Below are positions 49,315 to 50,888 of a stretch of 64,000 nucleotides of DNA, piece by piece. Source of the DNA: Candidatus Microthrix parvicella Bio17-1 (GTDB lineage Bacteria > Actinomycetota > Acidimicrobiia > Acidimicrobiales > Microtrichaceae); contig NZ_AMPG01000002.1 in the NCBI RefSeq assembly GCF_000299415.1, positions 372,001-436,000 of the forward strand. Direction: 5' to 3'. A program made the translations under genes and the position numbers. Each line of letters opens with the position of its first letter. Position 1 is the first letter of the stretch. Below the pieces are notes generated by a model that searched no databases, was not told the origin of the DNA, and saw only the letters and a program-made list of their open reading frames with translations.

Positions 49315-49463
49315 GCCAACCAGCATGGTGCATGACCGGCCAACCGACGCAGCCGCAACTCACCCGCAGCGCCTGACCCCCTCGACACCCCGTGAGGATT
49401 CAGCCTCCTGGAGGGACGAACTCCTCCTGGGGGGGCAAGCCCTACGATGTGCGAGGAGGCCTG

Positions 49464-50888
49464 GTGGAACGACGTCAACTACTTCGTATGGGTGCCACGG
49501 GCGGCGCATGGTGGGCCACACTGGCCACGGCCGGCGGATGCTCCTCGCAGCGCGACGCCGAGCGGAACGCCACCCGGGGGTCGACCTCAACGCGGCAGCC
49601 CGTTCCCGAACCGACCGCCATGGTCCGCACCAACTGGTCAAAGGACCCCTGGGCCCGTGGCTCGTACAGCTACCTGCCGGTGGGGGCAACGCCCGAGCTA
49701 CGCCGGGCGCTGGGCACCCCCATCGGCGATCGCCTGTTCTTCGCCGGTGAGGCCACCGACCTGGGCGACCCCGGCACGGTGCACGGGGCCCGGGCCAGCG
49801 GCATGCGGGTGGCGACACAGGTGGCGGCTGCGACCGGCACCGACGAGACCCTCCTGATCATCGGCGCCGGCATGGCGGGGTTGACCGCGGCGTTCGAGTT
49901 GAGCGCCGGCAGGTTCGCCGACCGCCGATACCGGGTGAGGCTGGTCGAGGCCCGCGACCGCCTGGGGGGCCGGCTCGACTCGGTCAGACCCGCCGGCCTC
50001 GACACCTACGCCGAGCGGGGCGCCTCCTGGGTGCATGGAATCGAAACCAACGAACTGGACACGCTGGTGCACGAGGCCCGGATCGACACCGTGCCCTTTG
50101 ACTACCGCCAGGCGACGCTGGGGTTGGAGGGCCGGCGACTGCCCACCGACTACCTCGATGAGCCCGCCGATGCCGTCGAGCAGGCAGCCGCCTGGGCCCG
50201 GCGACAGGGCGCCGATCAGGCACTCGCCGACGCCGTCGAGGCCAGTGGGTTCGCCGAAAAGGTCGACCAAGAGGCCCTGGAGCACTACCTGACCACCGAG
50301 GTGACCGACGAGTACGGGGCCTCAGCCGCACGGCTCTCAGCGCGGTGGGCGCTGGAGGAGGGCAACGAGGGCACCGACCTGCTGGTGGTGGGCGGCTACT
50401 CCAACCTGGCACGGCATCTTGCGAACCAGATCCCGAAAGTCGATGTCCGCCTCAGCACACCGGTGGCCGAAGTCGCCCACGACCCCGACGGCGTCACCGT
50501 CATCACGCAGACCGACGAGACGTTGAGCGCCGACCGGGTGATCGTCACCGTGCCACTCGGCGTGCTCCAGGCGGGTGACATCTCATTCTCGCCGGCGCTC
50601 TCGGAGGACCACCAGACGGCGATCGACGACCTCGGCATGGGCCTGCTTGACAAGGTGATCCTCTACTTCGATACACCGTTCTGGCAGGAGGCCGCGCCAA
50701 TGTGGACCAGGGTCGCGCCCGGCCATCCGTTCCGAGAATGGTTCAACACCTCCCCCGGCCTGGCCGATACACAACTGACGACCCTGACCGGCGGCGACGT
50801 TGCCCTGGCCTGGGCCGAGAAGACCGATCACCAGGTTCAGGCAGCGGCGCTGGGCGCCCTCGCGACCTTCATGGCAGCCGGATGGTGA
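49464..50888 (+). CDS. Circularly permuted flavin amine oxidase, Tat lipoprotein
   Basis: 474 residues from a GTG with GAGGAGG ahead. Signal VERRQLLRMG then hydrophobic residues and lipobox TAGGC (Cys26) suggests Tat export and a lipid anchor. Residues 48-120 are the canonical C-terminal segment of amine oxidases: RTNWSKDPWARGSYSYLPVG, LFFAGEAT at 91-98, then TVHGARASG. Only after this comes the FAD-binding N-terminal segment LLIIGAGMAGLTAAFELS at about 130, the RDRLGGR block, GASWVHG, ARWALEEGNEG, VIVTVPLGVLQAGD and LGMGLLDKVIL. The protein ends ALGALATFMAAGW, just where the canonical protein would pass into PEPTAMVRTNW. The order is thus C-part then N-part, a circular permutation. Substrate unknown. 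Confidence 0.85.
   Translation: MERRQLLRMGATGGAWWATLATAGGCSSQRDAERNATRGSTSTRQPVPEPTAMVRTNWSKDPWARGSYSYLPVGATPELRRALGTPIGDRLFFAGEATDLGDPGTVHGARASGMRVATQVAAATGTDETLLIIGAGMAGLTAAFELSAGRFADRRYRVRLVEARDRLGGRLDSVRPAGLDTYAERGASWVHGIETNELDTLVHEARIDTVPFDYRQATLGLEGRRLPTDYLDEPADAVEQAAAWARRQGADQALADAVEASGFAEKVDQEALEHYLTTEVTDEYGASAARLSARWALEEGNEGTDLLVVGGYSNLARHLANQIPKVDVRLSTPVAEVAHDPDGVTVITQTDETLSADRVIVTVPLGVLQAGDISFSPALSEDHQTAIDDLGMGLLDKVILYFDTPFWQEAAPMWTRVAPGHPFREWFNTSPGLADTQLTTLTGGDVALAWAEKTDHQVQAAALGALATFMAAGW

Follow-up and report, generated by a model that had tools for sequence, protein, structure and literature searches.

The window analysed here, a stretch of 64,000 nucleotides from Candidatus Microthrix parvicella Bio17-1, carries on its forward strand an intact open reading frame that starts with GTG at 49464, ends with a stop codon at 50888, and encodes a flavin amine oxidase homologue of 474 residues. 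The sequence AGGAGG (49454 to 49459), which resembles a ribosome-binding site, is located 4 bases upstream of the GTG. Counted from this start, the protein begins with a putative Tat leader (MERRQLLRMG...) that runs to the lipobox residue Cys26 (49464 to 49541), followed by residues 27-45 (49542 to 49598), a linker of low pLDDT that is probably a flexible tether. Flavin amine oxidases, including MAO, PAO, and LSD1, are a heavily studied family, in whose canonical order a Rossmann GxGxxG motif lies near the N-terminus and a FAGEAT block closes the protein. In the window protein, the block that is normally C-terminal occupies residues 46-123 (49599 to 49832) and contains Trp58, GSYSY (66-70), FFAGEAT (92-98), and GTVHG (104-108). 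A closing linker, residues 124-128 according to the model (49833 to 49847), connects the old C-terminus with the old N-terminus. Residues 129-474 (49848 to 50885) form the FAD-binding and substrate core, normally the N-terminal part, with the dinucleotide-binding motif GAGMAG at 134-139 (49863 to 49880), Lys397 (50652 to 50654) aligned with a lysine of LSD2 in the column of the conserved flavin-facing lysine, and Trp426 (50739 to 50741), which is invariant in 24 aligned permuted proteins. The GC content at third codon positions is 0.87 in the moved block and the core alike, as expected for coding DNA here. An earlier note on this DNA, made from the letters alone, had described a FAGEAT block ahead of the FAD-binding GAGMAG, and the reading frame and motif order are as it described.

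Both blocks are homologous to the LSD1-LSD2 (KDM1) and polyamine oxidase family. The Pfam profile PF01593 (Amino_oxidase) matched the protein with 223.4 bits (cut-off 19.8, E 8.9e-66) in two stretches, the better of which placed residues 138-471 on profile positions 1-365 of 443 (numbered on a 475-residue query that starts one codon earlier). LSD2 also aligned in two swapped stretches, with query residues 128-422 on LSD2 337-643 (80.3 bits) for the core and residues 40-122 on LSD2 693-775 (48.2 bits, i-Evalue 5.8e-12) for the moved block; the latter match is, therefore, not due to chance. LSD2, LSD1, spermine oxidase, and polyamine oxidase are among the top-scoring PDB sequences, and NCBIfam gave only sub-cut-off matches among the matches listed. 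When the PDB was searched with the family profile, no best stretch covered both blocks among the 60 chains listed of the 106 matched. The GxGxxG, FAGEAT, and TVHG motifs, the catalytic-type lysine, and the tryptophan are kept, whereas the window protein differs from LSD1-LSD2 and PAO in its swapped blocks, in new termini that fall after the last core helix and before the vtrW strand, in its Tat/lipobox leader, and in that no SWIRM domain was found in the Pfam scan. Since the FAGEAT block precedes GAGMAG and the canonical order of PF01593 is absent, the protein was filed as a permuted homologue and not as a canonical PAO, MAO, or LSD1.

AlphaFold2, run on A1, returned a confident model (mean pLDDT 84.2, pTM 0.84) in which only residues 1-42 fell under 50 and the ten-residue pLDDT means across residues 51-130 were 86-97. 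The elements of the moved block are predicted as strand 52-55, helix 77-84, strand 91-93, and helix 106-123, with spacings of 25, 14, and 15 residues; the helix closes the block and is followed by 5 residues and then by strand 129-133. A canonical control from Halomonas (L064), modelled with a pLDDT of 90.1 and a pTM of 0.88, showed the corresponding elements at 390-393, 415-422, 429-431, and 444-460 with the same spacings, and the modelled secondary structure of the window protein is thus a rotation of that of the control. Using VIA-align, residues 126-471 of the window model were superposed on LSD1 277-736 (2z5u; Z 26.1, rmsd 2.1 over 328), whereas the control was superposed on LSD1 277-828 (Z 51.0, rmsd 1.6 over 418). 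Alignment of the core alone is what we would expect from a chain-order aligner given a permutant, and the modelled core appears to share the fold of LSD1 and PAO. Judging from pTM, pLDDT, and the order of the elements, the moved block probably sits at the canonical C-terminal position. The proposal that the fold could still form because the two ends meet at the FAD site is, thus, supported by the model of the window protein and by the canonical control.

The same order was found in many other genomes. A scan of GTDB species genomes gave 343 candidate stretches. Relatives are encoded by 306 of them, and among the best 80 of these 306 relatives, 66 were permuted and 14 canonical. The permuted ones come from Microbacterium, Rathayibacter, Naasia, other Microbacteriaceae, metagenome-assembled genomes of Acidimicrobiia, and one Microthrix metagenome-assembled genome; L012 is one example, and the 66 include one copy that ends with its locus (L016), two that are split (L076 and L080), and one whose leader is out of frame with the rest (L038). 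According to the record titles, all permuted relatives among the best 80 of 306 belong to Actinomycetota, although the order may also occur elsewhere. Canonical relatives belong to Halomonas, Gemmatimonadota, Nocardiopsis, Ralstonia, Roseateles, Verrucomicrobiota, and others; L064 and the Gemmatimonadota proteins L068 and L069, for instance, have the canonical order, unlike the window protein. Together with the swapped blocks seen against Pfam and LSD2, this recurrence bears out the circular permutation that had been proposed, and it answers the suggestion to look for the order in other genomes.

These data also bear on whether the gene is an artefact in which parts of two amine oxidase genes, the end of one and the beginning of another, were misjoined or fused in this genome only. 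The window by itself could not exclude such an event, and apparent tandem canonical copies do occur elsewhere (L149 to L151). However, the order and the cut point recur in dozens of genomes, including records titled as chromosomes (L039, L056, and L058), and both blocks contain columns that do not vary across the 24 permuted proteins of the alignment. Since 66 of the best 80 relatives share the order, an error joining two genes in the source genome is untenable; assembly error was rejected, and a false gene is exceedingly improbable.

To describe the distribution, genomes were searched with the profile A1, an alignment of 24 permuted proteins, and matches had to run colinearly through both blocks; E cut-offs varied from 1e-10 to 1e-50, and counts were read by eye from the match tables. 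Within the family of the window genome, 9 of 33 genomes carried the permuted gene and four more carried partial pieces. Its class yielded at least 12 among 296 drawn genomes, from several families; counted among the 12 are matches whose start lies beyond the leader, one truncated by a contig end, and one interrupted by an internal TAG. The phylum draw yielded at least 10 of 396 genomes, plus G637, where the copy (L156) is broken, with an interrupted frame and part of the core seemingly missing. At least 60 of 199 genomes were positive in the family of G556, which is Microbacteriaceae-like and which we infer to be Microbacteriaceae, as three of its loci are the same as loci from named Rathayibacter records. 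Low counts are lower bounds, because the E cut-offs differed between searches and, for the class, the phylum, and the family of G556, only 4-8 candidates were scored per genome. Two of five genomes in the family of G470 and 3 of 42 in the order of G453 were also positive; with the phylum draw, these extend the permuted order to further families of actinobacteria. Ten of the 60 genomes in the family of G556 had a second match to the core alone, which was confirmed as a canonical-order gene in G566 (L163) and was taken as such in the other nine.

For residue and leader counts, 22 ORFs with unclear or fragmentary order were left out, and 9 of 152 classified rows were removed as locus repeats. This left 94 permuted and 49 canonical proteins, none identical, whose counts do not represent independent events because some rows are close relatives; the classifying profile was built from permuted sequences only. 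The window leader shows a twin-arginine motif, a short hydrophobic stretch, and a lipobox cysteine (ERRQLLR...AGGC), and all 24 permuted proteins of the alignment share Arg3, Arg4, and Cys26. Less typically, its lipobox has Ala at position -3, where Leu is the usual residue. The combination of a twin-arginine motif and a lipobox cysteine occurs in 91 of the 94 permuted proteins and in 11 of the 49 canonical relatives, and after thinning at 70% identity in 47 of 49 and 9 of 39, respectively. With or without the lipobox, a twin-arginine motif is present in 27 of the 49 canonical relatives. The three permuted proteins without the pattern are L038, whose leader lies in another frame than the oxidase, L121, which starts at a contig end, and L125, a leaderless permuted oxidase of 427 residues (minus strand of L187:6617-7900, genome G302). 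The Tat/lipobox leader noticed earlier in the window protein is, thus, a nearly constant feature of the permuted proteins.

Beside the oxidase gene, the window has a LOG/lysine-decarboxylase-like gene, a small ORF that matched nothing in Pfam, and a PIG-L deacetylase. No conserved neighbourhood was detected; among the 25 most widespread ORF clusters from 64 permuted loci and the window, the window was present only in those of the oxidase and of frames overlapping it. Twelve regions around permuted genes had no neighbour in common with the window, save one CaiB-like ORF in L187; genes in these regions were picked by a rough GC criterion that failed to pick up the L187 oxidase. The earlier note had named a canonical copy at the same synteny in close relatives as evidence against the permutation. 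The oxidase was permuted in all 12 regions, but synteny with the window was nearly nil, and the comparison is not a strict test of that point. Synteny was also considered as a clue to the substrate and was uninformative, there being no conserved neighbourhood.

At L186:5020-7044 (G255), a single reading frame joins a GNAT acetyltransferase to a permuted amine oxidase that lacks a leader. Nearly full-length copies of the fusion occur in G876 (83% identity) and G875 (59%, with one internal TAG), which makes three genomes of one genus; in G877, of the same genus, the match covers the GNAT part only. By analogy, the pairing of GNAT and oxidase resembles the acetylation and subsequent oxidation of polyamine back-conversion. 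The search of the GNAT part against the PDB gave generic GNAT matches only (best E 0.00025) and no specific polyamine acetyltransferase. Since L125 and the GNAT-fused oxidase are permuted and have no leader, tethering is separable from the permutation.

Conservation of the active site divides the permuted proteins. The window protein keeps Lys397, which we take to be equivalent to Lys661 of LSD1 and Lys300 of maize PAO and to have a flavin-facing catalytic role, together with Tyr68, Thr105, His107, and Trp426. Among the 27 permuted proteins outside Microbacteriaceae, the lysine is present in 26 (Arg in one), Tyr68, Thr105, and His107 in all 27, and Trp426 in 26 (one gap). The 67 Microbacteriaceae proteins retain Trp426 and Glu96 of FAGEAT throughout and Thr105 in 65, while the catalytic-type lysine is kept only in L172 (with Thr in its place in 51 of 67), Tyr68 in two, and His107 in none; L009, L024, and L141 are examples that lack the lysine. 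The corresponding counts in the 49 canonical relatives are 47 for Lys, 45 for Tyr, 37 for Thr, 31 for His, and 29 for Trp. The loss of Lys, Tyr, and His with every Glu96 retained would fit the view that the permuted proteins are FAD-binding non-oxidases, such as pseudo-enzymes or binding or redox-sensing lipoproteins. We consider this view improbable, as the window protein and the other permuted proteins outside Microbacteriaceae keep these residues nearly without exception. The window protein retains the residues of the catalytic columns and probably works as an oxidase, whereas the Microbacteriaceae branch, having lost Lys, Tyr, and His, is probably inactive as an oxidase or has an altered chemistry. 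Activity should not be assumed across the family, since only 1 of 67 Microbacteriaceae copies has the lysine.

In 45 of the 49 canonical relatives, 2-5 residues lie between the core and the block that is moved in the permuted proteins; therefore, the cut is clean, and the chain was opened at one place with no notable loss. The distance from the serine of aSG to GAG, which spans the closing linker, is 22 residues in 79 of 94 permuted proteins. No duplication intermediate was found, as the moved block never occurred twice among 186 block-bearing ORFs (ORFs of at least 60 residues in 195 loci). Separately, L149, L150, and L151 (G670, G663, and G410) each contain a full canonical amine oxidase ORF and, ca. 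1 kb away, the end of another, which suggests tandem canonical copies. Duplication and trimming of such an arrangement could give a permutation.

The permutation may have had several origins in actinobacteria. In a tree of 88 proteins, 49 of them permuted and 39 canonical, six changes of order were needed, and in a 66-row tree nine. Permuted and canonical lines are intermingled in these trees, and when the permuted proteins were constrained to a single clade, the best tree obtained was 40.9 log-likelihood units worse. However, the tree backbone is poorly supported, well-supported branches force only one change of order, and the single-clade tree was not rejected by the AU test (p 0.101). The permuted proteins also have in common the cut point, mostly the length of the closing linker, and nearly always the Tat/lipobox leader. 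Several origins seem less likely than one. One origin is favoured because cut point, closing linker, and leader are shared; the sequence trees alone do not favour it.

Taken together, the most probable reading, to which we assign a probability of ca. 0.8, is that a natural, old circular permutation gave rise to a predicted surface-tethered FAD amine oxidase of the polyamine type. As the sequences show, a canonical PAO/LSD1-type chain was opened once, between the last core helix and the strand to the vtrW...FAGEAT block, and the old ends were closed by a short linker from the last helix to the first Rossmann strand, with a geometry as suggested by the model. Given its leader, the folded FAD enzyme probably leaves the cytoplasm by Tat and stays anchored outside the cell through a lipid on Cys26. 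Since Lys397, Tyr68, Thr105, His107, and Trp426 are in place, the most likely reaction is the oxidation of a polyamine-like or other primary or secondary amine with O2 to an imine or aldehyde and H2O2. Through the permutation, the tether would enter at the junction of the substrate and FAD domains and not at the Rossmann N-terminus, and the enzyme may thus be re-oriented on the membrane. We propose that this shift of the tether may be the reason for the success of the permutation. More tentatively, and with odds short of even, a single ancient event that moved the tether point may have founded a lipoprotein branch of Actinomycetota, in which Microbacteriaceae lost Lys, Tyr, and His and turned the protein into a surface FAD protein with a different chemistry, while the window line is still a working oxidase.

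A literature search, largely without subscription journals, found no paper on circular permutation in flavin amine oxidases, and the earlier remark that no such case was known thus holds within that search. PMC2876114 names glutathione synthetase as a case of circular permutation; the rearrangement is of the same kind as in the window oxidase, whose fold is predicted to be retained as well. Neither PMC2876114 nor PMC2213659 concerns flavin amine oxidases. The permutation of this oxidase fold is real and conserved, occurs mostly in putative Tat lipoproteins of actinobacteria, and is apparently undescribed. The earlier note could not foresee that the branch is widespread in actinobacteria and that a large part of it is nearly without the catalytic-type lysine. 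The permuted order may explain why automatic annotation would report the oxidase as truncated. In addition, a large Microbacteriaceae branch comes to light in which the FAD-site motifs are kept and the catalytic lysine is nearly lost. A conserved natural permutant marks where the flavin amine oxidase fold tolerates opening, and it provides a natural experiment on the folding and membrane tethering of a putatively Tat-exported flavoenzyme.
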